From assembly GCA_947565635.1 (NCBI GenBank), contig CANOGU010000005.1, positions 18,383 to 82,382 on the forward strand: a stretch of 64,000 nucleotides of DNA. The letters run 5' to 3'. Origin of the DNA: an uncultured Lactobacillus sp. GTDB taxonomy: Bacteria; Bacillota; Bacilli; Lactobacillales; Lactobacillaceae. Position numbers and translations under genes: made by a program. The notes beneath the pieces were generated by a model that was not told where the DNA came from, searched no databases, and saw only the letters and a list, made by a program, of their open reading frames with translations. Shown here piece after piece: positions 27,356 through 50,703 of the stretch (within the stretch, counting starts at the first letter, position 1; the number at the start of each line of letters is the position of its first letter).

Positions 27356-27443
27356 GGAGAGTTGGCAGAGTGGTAATGCACCGGACTCGAAATCCGGCGA
27401 ACCGGCTTATACCGGCGCGCAGGTTCAAATCCTGTACTCTCCT
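27356..27443 (+). tRNA. tRNA-Ser (anticodon CGA)
   Basis: Acceptor GGAGAGT (27356-27362) pairs with ACTCTCC (27436-27442). The anticodon stem CCGGA/TCCGG holds the loop CTCGAAA with anticodon CGA. A long variable arm (CCGG/CCGG) marks a class II tRNA, and the T-arm is GCAGG-TTCAAAT-CCTGT. A TATAAT-like box precedes it near 27334-27340. The base after the acceptor stem is T, unlike the G usual in tRNA-Ser. It borders the prophage integrase gene. Confidence 0.93.
27420..27443 (+). other. Probable prophage attachment site (attL) in the tRNA-Ser 3' end
   Basis: A tyrosine-recombinase gene starts its region within about 110 bases of a tRNA 3' end and points toward it. This is the classic arrangement where the T-arm and acceptor 3' half form the att core. 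The second copy should be at the right prophage end, outside the window, so the core cannot be delimited. Confidence 0.6.
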
Positions 27444-27519: not shown

Positions 27520-27562
27520 ATATAAAGAAAATGCATCCGGAAGGGTGCATTTTCTTTATATA
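27519..27562. terminator. 20-bp hairpin terminator overlapping the integrase stop
   Basis: 27519-27538 pairs with 27543-27562 (one G-U) around a GGAA loop. It contains the integrase stop codon and separates it from the tRNA. Confidence 0.8.
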
Positions 27563-28731
27563 TTTAATTGCTTTAATGCATTAACTGCATCTTCTTTATT
27601 TTTATTATTTACATGCGTATAAATATCTAACGTCATTTGGATATTTTCATGACCAAGCAGCATTTGAACAGTTTTAGGTTTTACATTAGTTTCCGCAATA
27701 AGTAGTGTTGCAAAAGTATGTCTAAAGCCATGAACTGTTATATGACGTAAATCAGGTTGTGGTTCTTTTAAGTTGTGTGTTTTTGCATACTTAACTTTTT
27801 CCTCATGATCTTTAGCATAAATTGATTTGAGCCATTGATCTGGTTTGCTCATTTTTAAATACGTTCCTTTAATTGTGTGAAAGAGCTTGTTAGAGATGAC
27901 TTTTCGCTTTTGCTTATAATCTATCAAAACTTCTTTTAAACTGTCTGAGATAGGTAAAATACGCTTAGATTTAGGTGATTTAGGTGGCTGGATAATTGTT
28001 TTATTGTCTAAACCATATGCCAAGGTTTTATTTATGGATAAAGTACCTGCTTTTAAATCAATATCTTGCCAAGTCAAAGCTAATGCTTCGGATTTTCTAA
28101 GACCGGTAGCAGAAAGTAGCTTGAAGTAAGTATATTGAACTAATCCATACTCTTTGGCCACTTCAAGAAATTGATTTAGTTCCTCTCGTGTATAAACATT
28201 ATGTTCAGTATCTCTACGTGGTCGAGATGTCTTTTTAGGGATAATGATCCGCTTTAAAGGATTTTCAGACACATAATTTAACCGAATACCATATTCAAAA
28301 AGAGCATTAAATTCATTAATAGCGTCCCTATATTTAACAATTTGTTTTGCTTTCCTATCAGCCCACTTTTGTAATTCAGCTACTGTAATCTTGTCAACGT
28401 ATTGGTTACCAAAATCCGGAATAACATGGTTATCAAAGACTTGTTTATTTTTATTCGCAGTAGATTCTTTTACCTGAGTTTTATAGTTTTCAAACCAGAG
28501 ATCACGTAATTCAAAAACTTTAATCTGCTTTTGCTTTACAAAATTATCTGGTTTAGTTTGAGATAATTTGTTGAATACTGCTTCTGCTTCAGCATAGGTT
28601 TTAAAACCGCGCCTGTGAACTTGCACTCGATCACCATTGCTGTTTTGACCTAGTGAAATTACAAATTCATACCGTTTTTTTCCAGACTTTAATTTATAAT
28701 CTTTGATACTGGTGTTTTTTCTTTTTGGCAT
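27556..28731 (-). CDS. int: Prophage integrase (tyrosine recombinase)
   Basis: A 391-residue tyrosine recombinase for site-specific integration. The N-terminus has an arm-binding-like basic region, followed by a SAM-like core-binding domain (about 60-160). The catalytic domain has the first Arg in SATGLRKSEAL, the HxxR in HGFRHTFATLL, and the nucleophile Tyr in TLDIYTHV near the C-terminus. It points at tRNA-Ser. The start ATG at 28731 follows a strong AGGAGG, but that site can be buried in a 14-bp pairing. Confidence 0.93.
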   Translation of the reverse strand: MPKRKNTSIKDYKLKSGKKRYEFVISLGQNSNGDRVQVHRRGFKTYAEAEAVFNKLSQTKPDNFVKQKQIKVFELRDLWFENYKTQVKESTANKNKQVFDNHVIPDFGNQYVDKITVAELQKWADRKAKQIVKYRDAINEFNALFEYGIRLNYVSENPLKRIIIPKKTSRPRRDTEHNVYTREELNQFLEVAKEYGLVQYTYFKLLSATGLRKSEALALTWQDIDLKAGTLSINKTLAYGLDNKTIIQPPKSPKSKRILPISDSLKEVLIDYKQKRKVISNKLFHTIKGTYLKMSKPDQWLKSIYAKDHEEKVKYAKTHNLKEPQPDLRHITVHGFRHTFATLLIAETNVKPKTVQMLLGHENIQMTLDIYTHVNNKNKEDAVNALKQLNI

Positions 28732-39125: not shown

Positions 39126-39163
39126 GTAAAAGCGTAGCATAAGAGACGCGGCTTTCCTAGTCT

Positions 39164-39236
39164 GGCTCGTTGGTCAAGTGGTTTAAGACACTGGTTTTTC
39201 ATACCAGTAACACAAGTTCGATTCTTGTACGAGCTA
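39164..39236 (+). tRNA. Prophage-encoded tRNA-Glu (anticodon TTC)
   Basis: Acceptor GGCTCGT (39164-39170) pairs with ACGAGCT (39229-39235), discriminator A. The anticodon stem ACTGG/CCAGT closes a loop holding TTC; the T-arm ACAAG-TTCGATT-CTTGT is complete. CCA is not encoded. It sits inside the prophage between early and late modules. Confidence 0.88.
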
Positions 39237-39385
39237 TGGGAATTAATTGAATTAATTCACTGCGTTAATAGAATTCCTCTCTATAATATGTATTTAACAC
39301 TTGAGGCTATTGCTCTGTGTTCGCTGTGCGGACATGCATTTCTTATAGGGATGCCCCTTCAAAATTATTTTGTTAAAGAGCAAAT
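39237..39385 (+). other. Noncoding stretch between tRNA-Glu and the armless tRNA-like element
   Basis: AT-rich with small hairpins: GGAATT/AATTCC (about 39239-39280) enclosing ATTAA/TTAAT, and GTTCGC-TGT-GCGGAC near 39320. No gene or clear promoter seen. Confidence 0.5.
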
Positions 39386-43572: not shown

Positions 43573-45072
43573 GTGGCATTAGTGATTGATAAAGATTTAC
43601 TTGGCGATATAAATGAACCCAATATTGAAGCCATAAATTATGCAATTACAGAACTAAAGAGTCGTCAAAAACGATTAGACATGCTGTCTGATTATTACAA
43701 CGGAAAGCAAGAAATTGAAAAGCATACATTTGAAAATGCTAATGTTGGAGCTTCTAATGTAATGATTAATCATGCTAAATACATAAGTGATATGAATGTT
43801 GGATTTATGACAGGTAATCCGATTAAGTATGTTGCTGATAAAGGAAAGAATATTGATGATATTTTAGATATATTCAAGCAAATTGATATCCATAAGCATG
43901 ATATTGAATTAGAAAAAGACTTATCTGTATTTGGTTATGGCTATGAATTACTGTATTTAAAGCAAACTGATCCTATAATTGCTAGAGATAAATTAGGAAA
44001 TGAGAAGCTTACACCTAATACTGATTTAAAGATTGAAGTAATAGATCCTCGGGCAACCATTGTAGTAACGGATGATACGGTTGAACATGAACCATTATTT
44101 GCCGTTTTTGCTCAAGAAAAGAAAAACCTGAGCGGAGAAATAAATGGTTATAGTATTACTGTTTATATGCCTCAGAGAATTGTAGAATACCGTACAGAGC
44201 TGGGAATGGAAGTAGCCTCCACTGATCCCATTGTATATGATGGTGAAAATCTATTTGGTGCAGTTCCAATAATCGAATATCGAAATAATGAAGAACGACA
44301 AGGCGATTTTGAACAATTGATTTCGCTTATTGATGCATATAACTTGCTTCAAACGGATCGAATTTCAGACAAGGAAGCTTTTGTGGATGCACTTCTTGTT
44401 ACGTTTGGTTTTGGTTTAGATAATGATGAAGACGATAAACAAAGGCTAAATAGAGGTGTTATCGAAGCTCCTCCACGCGAAGAAGGAGCAGATATTGAGT
44501 GGTTAACTAAAAGCTTTGATGAAACACAAGTAAATCTGTTAAGCCAATCCATTGAGAATGATATTCATAAGATTTCATATGTGCCAAATATGAATGATGA
44601 AAAATTCATGGGTAATGTATCAGGTGAAGCAATGAAGTTCAAATTGTTTGGCTTGGAAAACTTGTTATCAATTAAGCAACGTTATTTCTTTGATGGCTTA
44701 CGCCGAAGATTACAGTTAATGCAGACGATAGTAAACATTAAGGGGGCAAATGATGATGCTAGTGGATGTAAAATTTCACTTACTGCAAATATTCCATCTA
44801 ATCTGTCAGATGTTGTAAATAACATCAAAAATGCAGATGGTGTCATCCCTAGAAAATATACGTATAGTTGGTTGCCCGACGTTGATAGTCCTCAAGATGT
44901 AATTGATGAAATGAATGAGCAAGATGCCGAAACTATTAGAAAGAATCAAGATGCTTTACGACAACAAGATCCTGATCGATTAGAACTGGAGGAGTCTCAA
45001 GATGATTCGAGTGAAGATAATAAAGAAATCCAATCAGACAACAATCATAGCAAGCGGACACGCTCAATATAG
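43573..45072 (+). CDS. Phage portal protein (SPP1 gp6-like)
   Basis: 499 residues forming the DNA entry ring at the capsid vertex. Start GTG 43573 after GAAGGTG. Recognisable portal segments include the LSDYYNGKQEI-like MLSDYYNGKQEI, NVMINHAKYISDMNVGFMTG and the core IPIIEYRNNEERQGDFEQ-like VPIIEYRNNEERQGDFEQ. The acidic C-terminal end overlaps the Prp-family protease gene by 71 bases in another frame. Confidence 0.92.
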   Translation: MALVIDKDLLGDINEPNIEAINYAITELKSRQKRLDMLSDYYNGKQEIEKHTFENANVGASNVMINHAKYISDMNVGFMTGNPIKYVADKGKNIDDILDIFKQIDIHKHDIELEKDLSVFGYGYELLYLKQTDPIIARDKLGNEKLTPNTDLKIEVIDPRATIVVTDDTVEHEPLFAVFAQEKKNLSGEINGYSITVYMPQRIVEYRTELGMEVASTDPIVYDGENLFGAVPIIEYRNNEERQGDFEQLISLIDAYNLLQTDRISDKEAFVDALLVTFGFGLDNDEDDKQRLNRGVIEAPPREEGADIEWLTKSFDETQVNLLSQSIENDIHKISYVPNMNDEKFMGNVSGEAMKFKLFGLENLLSIKQRYFFDGLRRRLQLMQTIVNIKGANDDASGCKISLTANIPSNLSDVVNNIKNADGVIPRKYTYSWLPDVDSPQDVIDEMNEQDAETIRKNQDALRQQDPDRLELEESQDDSSEDNKEIQSDNNHSKRTRSI

Positions 45073-45289
45073 TGCTAAAGGTTCTGATATTGTTTGTGCT
45101 GCATTTTCTACGCTTATTACTCATACTGTAAATAATTGCACTAAAGTAACTGCAACTGATAAAGATGGCGTATTAGTTACTATATTTTCAGACCCTAAAA
45201 GTATTGAAAATAAAACGCTATTAAATGCATTTGAAAATACAGTTAACCAATTGATTGACCAATACGGCCAATACATTTCTTGGTGTTGA
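45002..45289 (+). CDS. prp: Phage-encoded Prp-family cysteine protease
   Basis: 95 residues matching Prp (YsxB), the cysteine protease that trims the N-terminus of ribosomal protein L27 in Firmicutes. The active-site region reads SGHAQYSAKGSDIVCAAFS: His 20 and Cys 32 sit in the conserved GHA and DIVCA positions. Start ATG 45002 lies inside the portal gene behind GGAGGAG. It sits exactly where head phages place maturation proteases. Scaffold, capsid and tail tube of this phage all carry N-terminal LxLQRFA-like motifs, close to the L27 cleavage motif, so it is probably their processing enzyme. Confidence 0.85.
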   Translation: MIRVKIIKKSNQTTIIASGHAQYSAKGSDIVCAAFSTLITHTVNNCTKVTATDKDGVLVTIFSDPKSIENKTLLNAFENTVNQLIDQYGQYISWC

Positions 45290-45294
45290 TATAG

Positions 45295-46383
45295 ATGAAA
45301 ATTAATAAGAAGAAATTTACTTATTGGCAGTTACGTGATTTACAAGATGAGCAAAAAAATCAGGATGAAGCAACTGAAAGACTAAAAATAATTAATAATG
45401 CATATCAAAAAGCACAATCATATTTAAGCGACGAGGTTCAAAAAATCTATCGTCGCTATTTTTATGCAGATATTTCAAAAGATGAAGTAGCAACAATTAT
45501 GTCATCACACATTTCTCCTTCTGAATTGGTTACCCTTAAAGCCTTATCGTCTGGTATTACTGATAAAGGAAGTAGACAGGCAGTGGATGATTACTTAGGT
45601 AGACTTGCAGCTAAGAGCAGAATTACACGACTTGAAGAAATGCAACTTAAAGCATACATTGCTGCAAAATCGGCTGGAGCAACTGAACTAGATCAGAATG
45701 TTAAGTTGCATACCGAAATAATGAAGCATGCTTGGTCAGAGGCGGAGAAACAAAGTGCTGTTTATGACACTACTAAGGATTACACCTTGCACTCTCCTCA
45801 CTCTGTAGAAGTCAAGCAGGACAAAATAATCATTAAAAATCCTGATACTGGTAAAGAAGTAGCTACTGTTCCAATGGATAAAGATATTCCCAAGAGTAAG
45901 GTTACTGAAATTCCTAATCGCTATGTTGAAAAGGCATTAGAAACTCGCTGGAAAGGGAAGAATTTTTCATCACGTATCTGGGGTAATACAGACAAATTAG
46001 CCGAAAGATTGCAAGAATTATTTACAGTTAAAGAAATGAGTAATCTTCCTGAACGTGAAATGATTAAGCGAATTGAACAAGAATTCAATGTTGGTAAGTT
46101 CTATGCTAGTCGCTTGATTAGGACTGAAGCTAATTTCTTTTATTCTAAAATTAAGCTAGATAATTGGCGTAAACGTGGAGTTAAGCAATATCAATTGCTA
46201 GCAGTTATTGATAGTCGTACTAGTAAGATATGCAGATCAATAAATGGTAATGTCTATAATGTTAAAGATGCAGTATTTGGTAAGAACGTTCCACCACTGC
46301 ATCCCTTTTGCCGTACAGTTCCAGTAATTTATCTGGGTAATGCTAGAAGTACTAATAATAAACCGGTAAAAAGTAATTTGTAG
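45295..46383 (+). CDS. Phage head morphogenesis protein (MuF / SPP1 gp7-like)
   Basis: 362 residues. The helical N-terminal two-thirds lead to the MuF-type C-terminal module with FYASRLIRTEANFFYSKIK and VIDSRTSKICRSINGNVY, ending PPLHPFCRTVPVIY, whose Cys/His pattern is conserved. This minor capsid protein is packaged near the portal and may be injected with DNA. It starts 5 bases after the protease gene. A terminator-containing gap follows. Confidence 0.88.
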   Translation: MKINKKKFTYWQLRDLQDEQKNQDEATERLKIINNAYQKAQSYLSDEVQKIYRRYFYADISKDEVATIMSSHISPSELVTLKALSSGITDKGSRQAVDDYLGRLAAKSRITRLEEMQLKAYIAAKSAGATELDQNVKLHTEIMKHAWSEAEKQSAVYDTTKDYTLHSPHSVEVKQDKIIIKNPDTGKEVATVPMDKDIPKSKVTEIPNRYVEKALETRWKGKNFSSRIWGNTDKLAERLQELFTVKEMSNLPEREMIKRIEQEFNVGKFYASRLIRTEANFFYSKIKLDNWRKRGVKQYQLLAVIDSRTSKICRSINGNVYNVKDAVFGKNVPPLHPFCRTVPVIYLGNARSTNNKPVKSNL

Positions 46384-46452
46384 ACCTAAGCAAGTCATAA
46401 AACTGCTTTAAAAACTAAATATACGTATGTGGATTTGTTGCTGCATATCTTG

Positions 46453-46487
46453 AAGTCACTGTGTAGAAATATGGAGTGGCTTTTTTC
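46453..46487 (+). terminator. Terminator between MuF-like gene and scaffold gene
   Basis: AAGTCACT (46453-46460) pairs with AGTGGCTT (46475-46482, one G-U), followed by T residues. It may set a step-up in expression for capsid genes from a downstream promoter. Confidence 0.7.
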
Positions 46488-46531
46488 ATGCAGTTATTTT
46501 GCGAATGTGCATGGGTAGAAAGGAAATATTT

Positions 46532-47173
46532 ATGGAAAATAAATTTTATGAAGGTTTATTAAAACTTGATTTGCAACGATTTGCTGATGAAGGACAAGGC
46601 GCGGGAGGTGATGACAACAATACACAAGACAATGTAAAAGATGATAGTCCAACTGATGAACAACCTTTTAAAACATTTAGTACTCAATCAGAATTGGATT
46701 CTTTCGTAGATAAGAAGTTGGCTAAGGCTTTAGATACAGCTCGCTCTAAGTGGGAAAAAGAACAAAACGATAAAGCTCAAAAAGCTAAAGATCTTAAGAA
46801 GATGTCTCCAGAGGAACGCCAAGAGTATGAATTTAAGCAACGGGAGCAAGCGTTGCTTGATAGAGAAGCTGATGTAACTAAGCGTGAAAACAAGAGTAAA
46901 TTGGCAACTCAGCTAATTACCGATGGCTTACCAGCAGAACTAGTAGATGTTTTTGACGATGTTCTAACTGATGAGGATAAAATGACAGATACTTATCAAA
47001 AAGTTAGTGACGTTTTTAGAAGTGCTGTTCATGATGCTGTTGAAACTCGATTAGCTCAAGGTGCAAAACCACCAAAGATCTCAGGCAATACTCAAACTAC
47101 CAAAACTACTGGAGAAATTTTTGCTGAAAGAGCTAATGAATCTCAAAATGTAAAAAATGATTTTTGGAATTAG
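46532..47173 (+). CDS. Phage scaffold protein (DUF4355) with N-terminal Prp-type motif
   Basis: 213 residues from ATG 46532 (AAAGGAAAT upstream); an in-frame TTG at 46499 is rejected. The N-terminus reads LLKLDLQRFADEG (residues 8-20), then an acidic stretch and a long coiled coil (about 55-140) with KMSPEERQEYEFKQREQAL, typical of DUF4355 scaffolds that assemble the capsid and are then removed. The LDLQRFA motif matches the Prp site, so the N-terminus is probably trimmed during maturation. Confidence 0.85.
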   Translation: MENKFYEGLLKLDLQRFADEGQGAGGDDNNTQDNVKDDSPTDEQPFKTFSTQSELDSFVDKKLAKALDTARSKWEKEQNDKAQKAKDLKKMSPEERQEYEFKQREQALLDREADVTKRENKSKLATQLITDGLPAELVDVFDDVLTDEDKMTDTYQKVSDVFRSAVHDAVETRLAQGAKPPKISGNTQTTKTTGEIFAERANESQNVKNDFWN

Positions 47174-47185
47174 AAAGGAATAAAT

Positions 47186-47557
47186 ATGTACACACAATTT
47201 CAAAATGGTAAGCAATTAAATTTTCTTGCTTCTGAAAAATTTACTGCTTTTCCAGAAACAATTAACAAAGATAATTACAATGTAAAAACTGACGATCTAG
47301 GTCGAAAGTATATTCCAGCTGGTACTGTGTATCCAACTAATGATGCTAAAGCAATTGGCATTACTGTTAATGATGTTTATGTGACAGATGGTGATACTAA
47401 TCAAATGGTTGCAGTAATGCGTGAAGGCTGGGTCTTAAGTCAACGCCTTGACCCAGTGCCAACAGCTGACGCAATTAAGGCAATGACGGTAATTCATTTT
47501 AAGGACCTAGAAACAGAAACAACCCCATCAACTGATGATACACATAAGGTTCAATAA
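47186..47557 (+). CDS. Probable head decoration or capsid-associated protein
   Basis: 123 residues, beta-rich, between scaffold and capsid, where decoration proteins lie. GRKYIPAGTVYPTNDAKAIG resembles the head-stabilising/decoration family of siphophages (lambda gpD position). No Prp motif. Function is inferred from position and composition. Confidence 0.55.
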   Translation: MYTQFQNGKQLNFLASEKFTAFPETINKDNYNVKTDDLGRKYIPAGTVYPTNDAKAIGITVNDVYVTDGDTNQMVAVMREGWVLSQRLDPVPTADAIKAMTVIHFKDLETETTPSTDDTHKVQ

Positions 47558-47572
47558 AGGAGAAAATAGTAA

Positions 47573-48622
47573 ATGAAAGATCAAAAGTTAAAACTAAATT
47601 TACAACGATTTGCTACACCAATTCTTGATATGTTTAGCCAAAGCACTGTTCTTGACTATACTCGCAATCGTCAATATCCAGATATGTTAGGCGATACTTT
47701 ATTTCCAGCTGTTAAAGTACCAACTCTTGAAGTAGATATTTTAAAAGCGGGGAATCGAGTACCAACCATTGCTAATATTTCAGCATTTGATAGTGAAGCT
47801 GAAATTGGTAGTCGTGATGCAAGTAAGATGACTGCTGAATTAGCATATGTAAAGCGTAAAATGCAACTTACTGAAGAAATGCTGATTAAGCTTCAAGCAC
47901 CACGTAATACGGCTGAAGAAAATTACTTAAAGCAATACGTTTTTGATGATATTGACGCTATGGTTCAAGCTGTAAAAGCTCGTGGCGAAAAGATGACAAT
48001 GGAAATGTTTGCCACTGGTAAGATTACTGATAACGCAAATGGTATCTCTATTGATTATGGTGTGCCTAAGAAACATCAAACATCACTAACAGGAAACAGT
48101 GCCTGGGATAAGGATGGTGCATCTATTATTGAAAACTTGCAAGATTGGTCTGATAAATTAGATATCACTCCTACAAGAGCCTTAACTTCTAAGAAGGTAC
48201 TTCGAGTATTAATGCGCAGTACTGAAATTAAAGAAGCTATTTTTGGTAAAGATACAGGTCGCGTAGTCGGTCAATCAGATTTAGACCAATGGATGACTGC
48301 ACAAGGATTGCCAGTTATTCGTGCTTATGATGGAAAATATCGTACAGAAGATGCTAAAGGCAACGTTACAACTCAATCTTACTTCCCAGAAGATAGAATT
48401 GTGCTATTTAACGATGAAGTACCAGGTCAAAAGATTTATGGTCCAACTCCAGAAGAAAATCGCTTGATTTCAAGCAATGCACAAGTTTCTAATGTAGGCA
48501 ATGTGATGGCTAAGGTATATGAAACAAGTGAAGACCCAATTGGTACTTGGATTCTTGCAGCTGCAACTATGCTTCCATCATTTGCCAGTGCAGATGATGT
48601 TTTCCAAGCTAAAGTGCTCTAA
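47573..48622 (+). CDS. Major capsid protein (gpE family) with N-terminal Prp-type motif
   Basis: 349 residues. The body, with LDMFSQSTVLDYTRNRQYPD and GDTLFPAVKVPTLEVDIL, fits the lambda gpE-like major capsid family. The N-terminus MKDQKLKLNLQRFATPI carries LKLNLQRFA (residues 6-14), matching the L27 Prp site. Cleavage after Ala 14 would leave a mature protein of about 335 residues. AAAGGAGAAAATAGTAA precedes the ATG. Confidence 0.9.
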   Translation: MKDQKLKLNLQRFATPILDMFSQSTVLDYTRNRQYPDMLGDTLFPAVKVPTLEVDILKAGNRVPTIANISAFDSEAEIGSRDASKMTAELAYVKRKMQLTEEMLIKLQAPRNTAEENYLKQYVFDDIDAMVQAVKARGEKMTMEMFATGKITDNANGISIDYGVPKKHQTSLTGNSAWDKDGASIIENLQDWSDKLDITPTRALTSKKVLRVLMRSTEIKEAIFGKDTGRVVGQSDLDQWMTAQGLPVIRAYDGKYRTEDAKGNVTTQSYFPEDRIVLFNDEVPGQKIYGPTPEENRLISSNAQVSNVGNVMAKVYETSEDPIGTWILAAATMLPSFASADDVFQAKVL

Positions 48623-48639
48623 TTGTGGAGGTGCTTAAT

Positions 48640-48948
48640 GTGGATCAAATGGCAGAACTGGTTTCATCCCTAAGCACAAGATTACAGGCTTCTGATAATG
48701 ACTTAGTAACAGACTTAATTAAAGAAGCAATTGCGCAAGTTCTAGATTATACTGGGCAAAAGAAGTTAGTTGGCAACATGGATATCTATGTTAAAAAGCT
48801 AGCAGTTATTAATTACAATCGACTAGGTATAGAGGGCGAAACTCAACGAACAGAGGGTGGAGTTACTAATTATATTGAAACTGGTATTCCTAAAGATATT
48901 CGATTGGGACTAAACCATTATCGAATAGCAAAGGTGACTAGATTATGA
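48640..48948 (+). CDS. Head-tail connector (gp6/gp15-like)
   Basis: 102 residues, helical, from GTG 48640, which has GGAGGTG six bases upstream; an in-frame GTG at 48625 overlaps that site. VTDLIKEAIAQVLDYTGQKK fits gp6-like/SPP1 gp15-like adaptors that attach to the portal. Stop and the next start overlap. Confidence 0.7.
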   Translation: MDQMAELVSSLSTRLQASDNDLVTDLIKEAIAQVLDYTGQKKLVGNMDIYVKKLAVINYNRLGIEGETQRTEGGVTNYIETGIPKDIRLGLNHYRIAKVTRL

Positions 48949-49298
48949 GATTAAAAGAAAGTGATTTAACAACCGTTTATATTAGAAAACCTGCGGATAT
49001 TCAAGATGATGAGGGTTATACAACCAAAGGTTGGAGTGATTCTCAATCAATTAAAATGAATGTTCAATCTGCTGGCGGTTCTGTTAATGCTCAACTTTAT
49101 GGAAAAGATATTAAGTACGTTAAAACGTGCAAATATCAAGGAAAAGAGCTTTCAGAAGGACATGGAGAAGGCTATGGAATTTGTTTAAATGTCCCCGGCA
49201 CTAGTAATCCAGATTATAAGATTACAGCTATTCAGGAGTTCTCTACTCATAAAAACGTCACCTTAGAGCGAATAAAAAGGGATGAGCAAAATGATTAA
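48945..49298 (+). CDS. Head-tail joining / stopper protein (SPP1 gp16-like)
   Basis: 117 residues, beta-barrel-like, with QSAGGSVNAQLYGKDI near the middle. Position second in the connector cassette and size fit the stopper. Overlaps both neighbours by a few bases. Confidence 0.65.
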   Translation: MRLKESDLTTVYIRKPADIQDDEGYTTKGWSDSQSIKMNVQSAGGSVNAQLYGKDIKYVKTCKYQGKELSEGHGEGYGICLNVPGTSNPDYKITAIQEFSTHKNVTLERIKRDEQND

Positions 49299-49839
49299 TG
49301 TGGAACTAAAAGGGCTTGATGAGCTAAAGACAAAACTTAAAAAGCTCCCTAGCGTAGTTGCTAGTGCTACAGCTAACGGACAAGAAACTGCCATTGAACA
49401 AGCAGAAGCCTATGCAGTGGACGAATTGCAATCCAGCATAAAGTATTCTACTGGCGAACTTGCACGGAGCTTTAAGCATGAAGTTAAAATTGATAATGAT
49501 GAAGTTATTGGTCGCTGGTGGAACTCGTCTATGGTTGCAGTGTTTCGTGAATTTGGTACTGGTTTGGTTGGAGAAATGTCCGATAAACAACTTCCACAAG
49601 GTGTTGCAATTACTTATCGACAAACACCGTGGTTCTTTCCAGTTGATTCGGTTGATTTAGATTTAACTAAAATTTATGGCATACCTAAGATTAAAATCAA
49701 CGGCCAATATTTCTATAGAACTGCTGGGCAACCAGCTAGACAGTTCATGACGCCTGCTGCTAATCGAATTGAAAAGGAAGCACCAGAAATCATTAAGAAA
49801 TCTGTAGATCAAGAATTGCGTGATAAGTTAGGTGATTAG
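49282..49839 (+). CDS. HK97 gp10-like tail component
   Basis: 185 residues. VELKGLDELKTKLKKLP, VAVFREFGTG and GQPARQFMTPAANRI are typical of HK97 gp10-family neck/tail proteins. It overlaps the stopper gene and is followed directly by the tail-completion gene. Confidence 0.8.
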   Translation: MSKMINVELKGLDELKTKLKKLPSVVASATANGQETAIEQAEAYAVDELQSSIKYSTGELARSFKHEVKIDNDEVIGRWWNSSMVAVFREFGTGLVGEMSDKQLPQGVAITYRQTPWFFPVDSVDLDLTKIYGIPKIKINGQYFYRTAGQPARQFMTPAANRIEKEAPEIIKKSVDQELRDKLGD

Positions 49840-50208
49840 ATGGAAATTTATAATGTTAAAGCACTTGTCTTTAAGACACTTAAATCTATTCCAGAATTAA
49901 AAATGGTTTCACCTTCTTATCCTGGTAAATTCACAGCATTCCCGACTGCGATTTATTCAACTAGTCAGTCTTCTTATATACGCAATGCCTATCAGGAAGA
50001 AACTGATACAGAATGGAAGATAACAATTGATTTATATAATGACAAAGGATCACTAACACAAATAAAAAATAAGCTCATTGCTAAGTTTTCAGCAATGGGC
50101 TTTTCTAATAGTATTGGCGATCAAGATTTGAATGGAGTAGCACGAGTAGTACTTGTATTTACAGGAATTGTAGATAACACAAGTAAACGTGTATATCAGA
50201 AAGGATAA
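49840..50208 (+). CDS. Tail completion / terminator protein
   Basis: 122 residues, start on the base after the previous stop. FPTAIYSTSQSSYIRNAYQE and WKITIDLYNDKGS fit gpU/gp17-like tail-completion proteins. Function from position and size. Confidence 0.65.
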   Translation: MEIYNVKALVFKTLKSIPELKMVSPSYPGKFTAFPTAIYSTSQSSYIRNAYQEETDTEWKITIDLYNDKGSLTQIKNKLIAKFSAMGFSNSIGDQDLNGVARVVLVFTGIVDNTSKRVYQKG

Positions 50209-50211
50209 AAA

Positions 50212-50703
50212 ATGAAAAACGTAAAAATATATAGCAACTTATTGAAATTAGATATTCAACGATTTGCAGTTGATAGTTCCGAAGGACTTGTAGGAACAGG
50301 AACTAAGTTAGAAAGATCAGAAGATGGGTCTACCTGGGAAGAAATTGCAGATATTAAAACTATTCCTGAATTAGGTGGAGATACTGAAAAGATTGATGTT
50401 ACTACCTTAGCAGATGATAGACGTAAGCAAGTGGAAGGTATCCAAAATGCGTCTAACGTACAATTCCAAGCTGTATATAAGGGTGCTAGCTTTGCTAAAG
50501 CACTAAAAGAAGCTGGTAACCGTAAGCAATACAACTGGAAAGTTACTTATCCAGATGGCATGACTGCAACAATGCGTGGATCCTACAATATTAAGTTTGG
50601 TGCCGTAGCCGTTAACGGGGCATTAGGTTACACAATTACTATTACTGTATCTGATGGTCCTCACTTTACTGCTGCTGGATCAACTCAACCTGCAAGTAAG
50701 TAA
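50212..50703 (+). CDS. Major tail tube protein with N-terminal Prp-type motif
   Basis: 163 residues. LVGTGTKLERSEDGSTWEEI, VTTLADDRRKQVEG and the C-terminal YTITITVSDGP fit phi13/TP901-like tube proteins. The N-terminus has LLKLDIQRFAVDS (residues 10-22), the third copy of the LxLQRFA-type site in this phage. A tail tube with a Prp site is unexpected, as known Prp phage targets are capsid and scaffold. It is followed by a strong hairpin. Confidence 0.85.
   Translation: MKNVKIYSNLLKLDIQRFAVDSSEGLVGTGTKLERSEDGSTWEEIADIKTIPELGGDTEKIDVTTLADDRRKQVEGIQNASNVQFQAVYKGASFAKALKEAGNRKQYNWKVTYPDGMTATMRGSYNIKFGAVAVNGALGYTITITVSDGPHFTAAGSTQPASK

Follow-up and report, generated by a model that had tools for sequence, protein, structure and literature searches.

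Why should a prophage of an uncultured Lactobacillus encode a Prp-family cysteine protease of its own, and which proteins would such an enzyme cut? The question is raised by a 64-kb stretch of DNA, called here the window in its full length, for which an initial annotation had claimed that the phage uses its own Prp on three structural proteins, and that the enzyme could also act on host ribosomal protein L27. We consider it probable, at about four chances in five, that the prophage carries a self-sufficient module for Prp-type leader processing, with its own enzyme owing to the loss of cellular Prp from the host genus.

The prp gene and its protease family

The 5′ part of the head operon contains the following features:

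43573..45072, + strand: portal protein gene (PF05133, phrog_64)
44988..44994, + strand: Shine-Dalgarno-like GGAGGAG for prp, within the portal gene (from the sequence)
45002..45289, + strand: phage-encoded Prp-family cysteine protease, 95 aa (PF04327, phrog_4478, PDB profile match)
45295..46383, + strand: minor head protein gene, directly 3′ of prp (PF04233, phrog_115)

The description of a 95-residue protease gene overlapping the portal gene proved correct: the two ORFs share 71 nt, out of frame, and the product matches the PF04327 profile with 63.5 bits (cut-off 27, E 2.2e-17) and phrog_4478 ‘peptidase’ with E 9.9e-29. A single-sequence search with the window Prp found no match among PDB sequences, while a profile built from five phage Prps retrieved S. 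aureus Prp (4PEO/7KLD, E 1.2e-10) with the GHA and DIVC segments aligned. Judged against H22, D31 and C34 of SaPrp, the catalytic His and Cys and conserved Asp of PF04327 (MEROPS C108), His20 and Cys32 are the predicted catalytic residues and Asp29 the structural one, and G19, H20, A21, G27, D29, V31 and C32 are invariant across 16 phage Prps. Outside the portal overlap, prp is under purifying selection in four of five pairwise comparisons (dN 0.04-0.09, dS 0.20-0.48), the closest pair (L142) being uninformative (0.031 against 0.022). The gene lies between portal and minor head, not in the rplU-prp-rpmA location of cellular type. Placement of phage and host Prps in a family tree, suggested along with the initial annotation, put the window Prp within a starred group whose 32 rows are exclusively phage, and phage Prps form a group apart in this tree.

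Leaders on scaffold, capsid and tail tube

The putative substrates, which share an operon with prp, and their leaders are arranged as follows:

46532..47173, + strand: scaffolding protein gene (PF14265, 101.7 bits; start by comparison with Lj965)
46532..46582, + strand: scaffold leader of 17 residues, MENKFYEGLLKLDLQRF, with the predicted cut 5′ of the Ala codon at 46583 (motif scans)
47186..47557, + strand: cement/decoration-type head protein, no motif (phrog_909 ‘major head protein’; weak, sub-cut-off PF22758 cement match)
47573..48622, + strand: major capsid protein, Phage_cap_E (PF03864, 188.3 bits)
47573..47611, + strand: capsid leader of 13 residues, MKDQKLKLNLQRF, with the predicted cut 5′ of the Ala codon at 47612 (motif; leaderless homologs begin there)
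50212..50703, + strand: tail tube protein (PF08813, 113.3 bits)
50212..50265, + strand: tail tube leader of 18 residues, MKNVKIYSNLLKLDIQRF, with the predicted cut 5′ of the Ala codon at 50266 (motif; invariant residues)

The near-identity of the three N-termini, already pointed out in the initial annotation, was confirmed by scanning: the window contains exactly three LKL[DN][LI]QRFA leaders, versus none expected, and they reside on the scaffold, capsid and tail tube listed above, those on capsid and scaffold being characteristic of an 80alpha-type phage. A more permissive pattern, [DN][LIVM]Q.[FLMY][AS], searched on both strands no more than 40 codons from a start in frames of at least 50 codons, returned the same three genes only. 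The scaffold ORF as listed begins at TTG 46499; since MENKFYEGLLKLDLQRFA in the Lj965 scaffold lies four codons past a stop, and a purine-rich stretch is found 5′ of ATG 46532, the latter appears to be the likelier start.

In the mechanism that we propose, the 95-residue Prp, whose gene lies just ahead of those for the head proteins, would cleave the Phe-Ala bond of L-x-L-[DN]-[LI]-Q-R-F|A, so that scaffold, capsid and tail tube would lose leaders of 17, 13 and 18 residues, respectively, in the course of assembly. Catalysis, the exact position of the cut and its timing are predicted here from sequence.

Conservation of the module in related loci

We sampled relatives by capsid or tail-tube (TTP) homology, obtaining 154 loci, with some contigs represented twice: 107 are Prp-positive, 31 contain portal and minor head genes without any Prp in the stretch, and 16 are undecided. 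In counts that include near-copies, the site or a near variant is present on the scaffold in 107/107 Prp-positive loci (98 strict; 63/63 by distinct frames), on the tail tube in 102/107 (96 strict; 45/50 by distinct frames) and on the capsid in 63/107 (58 strict; 35/49 by distinct frames). This conservation supports the idea of a phage-borne Prp with three substrates, their cleavage being predicted; as the site is missing from the tail tube in five Prp-positive loci and from the capsid in 44/107, not every substrate is needed.

Fifteen of the 16 regions examined belong to the window phage type and are arranged portal-Prp-minor head-scaffold-cement-capsid; the 16th (L092) has a cellular-type Prp followed by L27. 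In the phage-type regions, the site was found in 14 scaffolds plus one near variant, in 11/15 capsids, and in 13 tail tubes plus one near variant among the 14 tail tubes found. The scaffolds of L144, L202 and L207 have the motif placed further in. Motif-bearing viral chunks (at least 120 stretches, 80 of them examined, many too short for calling absence) were left out of these counts; they are dominated by one recurrent N-terminus, MEQTQKLKLNLQHFA, which is that printed for 80alpha gp47 (PMC9405229, Table 1).

The leaders could instead be uncleaved signals for assembly or co-folding, bound by a Prp relative acting as a chaperone. The scaffold of 80alpha cannot do without its N-terminus, which nevertheless need not be cleaved, and binding to a shared chaperone has been discussed (PMC5744158); moreover, in a comparison of distinct sequences with raised score thresholds (reducing scaffolds from 36 to 34 and tail tubes from 32 to 31), the leader is kept in 34/34 scaffolds and missing from 7/32 capsids. 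Those leaderless capsids, however, begin at the predicted cut, their start Met aligning with the Ala that follows F|A. Together with the invariant catalytic His and Cys of the 16 phage Prps, and with P3 Gln, P1 Phe and P1′ Ala as the invariant leader residues in eight aligned tail tubes, this makes a purely chaperone-like role improbable, and argues for proteolytic removal of the leaders.

Co-occurrence of the motif and Prp

The motif pattern occurs in 7/75 genomes of the host genus, and a backward control pattern in 3/75. By this pattern, N-terminal motifs on phage structural genes are confined in the genus to the three Prp-bearing prophages; the further matches in G005, G043, G058 and G068 were rejected as leaders, being either short frames (57, 54 and 33 codons) or placed within one of 589 codons. 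None of the nine other scaffold matches in the genus, one of which comes from another contig of the genome that holds the window, has an N-terminal motif; all nine resemble other scaffold subtypes, and two fall below the family cut-off. In the family sample the pattern is found in 25/301 genomes, and matches outside phage structural genes are internal or in short frames, apart from L301 (G077), which is close to the start of a 195-codon frame. L304, L305 and L308 read NFQ or DFQ, and L317 lies in a 26-codon frame.

Among phages with a phage Prp and the strict motif, P2 is Arg in 25/33 scaffolds, 22/24 capsids and 23/28 tail tubes; in host L27s it is Phe or Leu in 62/70 and Arg in 4/70. A P2-Arg specificity code was rejected: Prp-positive phages with P2 Met, Leu, Lys, His and Phe occur, so P2 Arg is at most a clade tendency.

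Prp and L27 in the host genus

PF04327 matches were found in 3/75 genus genomes, all three prophage-borne, the gene being placed between those for portal and minor head. Neither PF04327 nor a 32-row profile detected a cellular Prp in the 75 genomes (the window host assembly being 79.6% complete, and G032 having 7% contamination); the profile added only five weak matches (E 0.003-0.24), each inside a longer frame. The gap between rplU and rpmA, which holds no gene in the host, measures 7-24 bp in 70/72 genus loci (2 not measurable), and 316-382 bp in the best-scoring 30 Prp-positive family loci. On an L21+L27 tree of 116 rows, to which the genus contributed 51 of its 72 loci, Prp presence needs four changes, of which starred branches force only one.

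The host genus thus appears to have lost both the cellular Prp and the canonical L27 site, which would leave the phage no host enzyme to borrow, unlike 80alpha in S. aureus, and this lack is probably why the phage keeps its own prp. The initial annotation had overlooked the absence of a cellular Prp from the genus, the likeliest reason for the phage copy. Four genomes that have a cellular-type Prp, G085, G186, G210 and G258, likewise harbor Prp-carrying prophages, which counts against our explanation, and host lack is therefore not the sole setting in which phage Prps occur. Such genomes would fit a phage Prp that is redundant with the host enzyme, as it would be for 80alpha, and hence accessory, and so would G077 and G198, in which motif-bearing scaffolds coexist with a lone Prp match that scores like a cellular gene and is presumably cellular. 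For the window phage, with no cellular Prp found in its genus on which it could rely, redundancy is very unlikely.

Host L27 begins MMINNLEALKLFAHHK and does not conform to canonical NLQxF|A; it is a poor Prp target because the recognition Gln is missing. This residue occurs in 0/72 L27 N-termini of the genus, 69/72 having Lys. The suggestion that the phage enzyme also acts on host L27 and interferes with the assembly of ribosomes, for which a leader still ending in LKLF-A would speak, is thus hardly credible, the Gln being absent throughout, P5 Asp/Asn missing from 52/72, and the host living without a detectable cellular Prp. Ribosomes of the genus seem independent of the Prp pathway, given that L27 lacks the Gln and no cellular Prp was found, and the genus contradicts the statement in section 3.1 of PMC9405229 that Prp is encoded by every species whose L27 is long.

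Implications

With a phage prp kept in a Prp-less genus, a protease that other phages borrow from the host becomes a cassette carried by the phage itself, and such bacteria provide a natural background without cellular Prp for asking what Prp cleavage does in heads and tails. Tentatively, several lineages of Lactobacillaceae type may have shed Prp yet kept the L27 leader, recoded from Gln to Lys in Lactobacillus, as an escape from Prp-dependent phages that was answered by phage-borne Prp. If so, Prp loss would remove a host factor that such phages need, the survivors being those that carry their own, and the L27 leader would either persist harmlessly in the ribosome or be removed by another enzyme. 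If long-L27 bacteria indeed live without a cellular Prp, Prp-directed drugs would spare them, and their L27 leader would call for a different explanation. Literature titles and abstract openings yielded no description of a phage-encoded Prp or of a Prp-less L27, which is not proof of absence.

Comparison with known systems

Like the window phage, 80alpha has N-terminal Prp sites on scaffold and capsid (KLKFNLQFF|A, KLKLNLQHF|A; PMC5744158, PMC9405229), with leaders of a similar length, 13-14 residues. It differs in using a host-encoded Prp (PMC5744158), whereas in the window the protease is part of the phage head operon, and the window adds a tail-tube leader and has Arg at P2. According to PMC5744158, 80alpha stays viable when capsid or scaffold is left uncleaved, and the role of the cleavage is still unclear; this dispensability speaks against our explanation. 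Extension of the substrate set to the tail tube, claimed in the initial annotation, agrees with the conserved site, but as a novelty it is preceded by phi13, a Prp-type motif having already been noted on the major tail protein of this phage in the Discussion of PMC5744158, described there without an accompanying phage Prp.

The capsid protease of phage CP-1, the other clan CR enzyme according to PMC9405229 (section 3.1), is by the description given there a phage cysteine protease that trims the capsid N-terminus, although its leader, at about 40 residues, is longer than those of the window. Cellular Prp/YsxB (S. aureus 4PEO/7KLD; DUF464) shares PF04327 and the GHA...DIVC active site with the window Prp, which differs in lying outside rplU-rpmA, in its phage-only tree group and in a host L27 without the canonical site. 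The Lactobacillus prophage Lj965 (NC_005355) and the Oenococcus phages phi9805 and Krappator149 have the gene order and leaders of the window and a gene annotated only as ‘peptidase’, with Prp identities to the window of 86.3%, 37.3% (over 67% of the query) and 28.7%, respectively.

The prophage Prp gene and its predicted substrates

The head operon of the prophage runs in the order terminase, portal, Prp, minor head, scaffold, cement, capsid, connector genes, tail tube, tail chaperone and tape measure, with the names of terminase and tape measure taken from sequence and from Lj965, an L. johnsonii prophage carrying the same module. The following features of the window are relevant:

27356-27443: tRNA-Ser(CGA), likely attachment site
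27556-28731: putative integrase ORF, adjoining tRNA-Ser
39163-39237: tRNA-Glu, within the prophage, directly ahead of the late genes
45002-45289, + strand: Prp, overlapping the portal gene

At the place equivalent to tRNA-Glu, Lj965 (locus L005, 1675-2250) has four tRNAs (Ser, Glu, Tyr and Phe).

The initial annotation proposed that the phage carries its own Prp, and this was borne out: the ORF is a clear PF04327 member by profile match, a five-sequence profile leads to the solved S. aureus Prp with the active-site residues of both in alignment, and the protein is 86% identical to Lj965 Prp. The leaders claimed for scaffold, capsid and tail tube are all present, and elsewhere in the window the leader pattern is absent from both strands. 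Judging from sequence, the phage Prp would most likely cut all three proteins between Phe and Ala during assembly, in a host that appears to offer no Prp of its own.

Conservation of the module

The gene order is common to 15 phage-type Prp regions (Lj965, two Oenococcus phages, one Latilactobacillus phage, the congeneric genomes G001 and G032, and nine from other genera), in which the site is found on 14/15 scaffolds (the 15th being a near variant), and 11/15 capsids. Fourteen tail tubes were found, of which 13 have the site and one has a near variant. A larger sample, chosen by Prp alignment as the best 80 from each of two collections, comprised 65 phage loci, 72 cellular loci with rplU/rpmA beside the gene, and 23 assigned to neither class (160 in total). 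Among the homologous phage proteins here, the leader is present on 34/34 distinct scaffolds, 25/32 distinct capsids (24 strictly) and 31/31 distinct tail tubes, 28 of the latter with Asp/Asn (one ending in FT) and three with Lys or Glu.

Another sample, selected for homology to capsid or tail tube, yielded 154 loci with the same contigs recurring: 107 have Prp, 31 have portal and minor head without a Prp in the stretch, and 16 were assigned to neither group. Including near variants, Prp-positive loci carry the scaffold site in 107/107 cases (98 strict; 63/63 distinct frames), the tail-tube site in 102/107 (96 strict; 45/50 distinct frames), five tail tubes lacking it, and the capsid site in 63/107 (58 strict; 35/49 distinct frames). 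The 31 Prp-less loci have in common the scaffold leader NLQFFA and leaderless capsids (27 distinct) with nearly identical starts, and none of these loci was found to have a homologous tail tube; L533 is one of about 30 such loci. Their phages may be users of host Prp.

Within the genus, the motif pattern matched in 7/75 genomes, and a backwards control pattern gave three matches in three genomes. Only in the three genomes that bear Prp (the window's own, G001 and G032) are the matches N-terminal on phage structural genes. Scaffold-family matches number 12 across 11 genomes, two of them below the family cut-off; all three scaffolds adjoining Prp have the motif, and none of the other nine does, including one from the window's genome (contig C12). 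Since these nine look like other subtypes, the co-occurrence counts as support but not as a strict test.

Origin of the phage Prp

Family-tree placement put the window Prp inside a starred set whose 32 rows are exclusively phage sequences. On the tree of 162 sequences (102 cellular, 60 phage), the cellular and phage labels need 8 changes, as opposed to 49 in shuffles, with starred branches forcing two, although the deep forks are unsure because the alignment has few columns (108) and some of the branches are long. The few label changes and the all-phage placement argue against recent capture of this Prp from a host.

Cellular Prp and L27 in the host genus and family

A PF04327 search found only the phage gene in the window's own genome and matched 3/75 genomes of the genus (1/60 among those of good quality); all three matches belong to prophages and lie between the portal and minor head genes, and no cellular Prp was found with this profile in the 75 genomes. 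The search is sensitive, as it matched 216/301 genomes and 30/40 genera of the family, prophage copies included. A second, 32-row Prp profile added only five matches in the genus, with E-values of 0.003-0.24; four sit within frames of 384-393 aa and one within a frame of 4769 aa.

L27 was found in 72/75 genus genomes, one of which has a second, partial match. The suggestion that the phage Prp also acts on host L27 was not supported: the recognition Gln at P3 is missing in 72/72 (Lys 69, Asn 2, Thr 1). P2 is Leu in 72/72, P1 is Phe in 51, Leu in 18 and Tyr in 3, and P1' is Ala in 70 and Ser in 2. The replacement of Gln by Lys in 69/72 beside the invariant Leu suggests a site maintained, yet recoded, in a genus where no cellular Prp was found. 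The L27 N-terminus of the window's genome (L002, 1134-1764, contig C11) is the same as that printed for L. johnsonii in Table 2 of PMC9405229; together with the 86% identity to Lj965 Prp, this points to Lactobacillus as the host genus. The rplU-rpmA gap is 7-24 bp at the 70 measurable genus loci, and 316-382 bp at all 30 loci with Prp inside (best-scoring family matches), the L27 sites of which read NLQ[FYL]F[AS] or DLQFFS.

Among the 85 genomes of the family that gave no Prp match, we looked at 23 outside the host genus, together with four in which the sole match is prophage-borne (27 genomes, 12 genera). Their rplU-rpmA gaps are 10-33 bp, and some of these genera have rplU and rpmA adjacent and an apparently intact NLQ[LMF][FL][AS] on L27. 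Such sites without cellular Prp occur at L105, L106, L108, L109 and L112 in genus g15, and at loci of g2, g7, g8, g17 and g39; three g15 genomes (G204, G249, G267) have no Prp match other than a prophage-borne one. Given the short gaps and retained sites in the examined genomes, long L27 without cellular Prp appears common in the family, counter to the statement in PMC9405229 that every species with long L27 encodes Prp.

Novelty and predicted position of the cut

The family of the protease is known, as is the motif, both on capsid and scaffold and on a tail protein, and phage Prp copies are already in databases, labelled "peptidase". The proposed extension of the substrate set to the tail tube holds as to conservation of the site but not as to novelty of the motif on a tail protein. 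Literature searches found no description of a phage-borne Prp with scaffold, capsid and tail tube as its substrates, nor of bacteria that lost Prp and kept an L27 leader in recoded form.

Among eight aligned tail tubes, leader length goes down to eight residues and the invariant leader residues are Gln, Phe and Ala, which are the Prp recognition residues. In seven distinct leaderless capsids the start Met aligns with the Ala following Phe, as if these genes encoded the mature end directly. In the Prp-led sample, the leader is missing from several capsids but from no scaffold. This mirrors phage 80alpha, for which PMC5744158 reports that pre-cleaved scaffold yields no capsids, whereas pre-cleaved capsid protein is viable.
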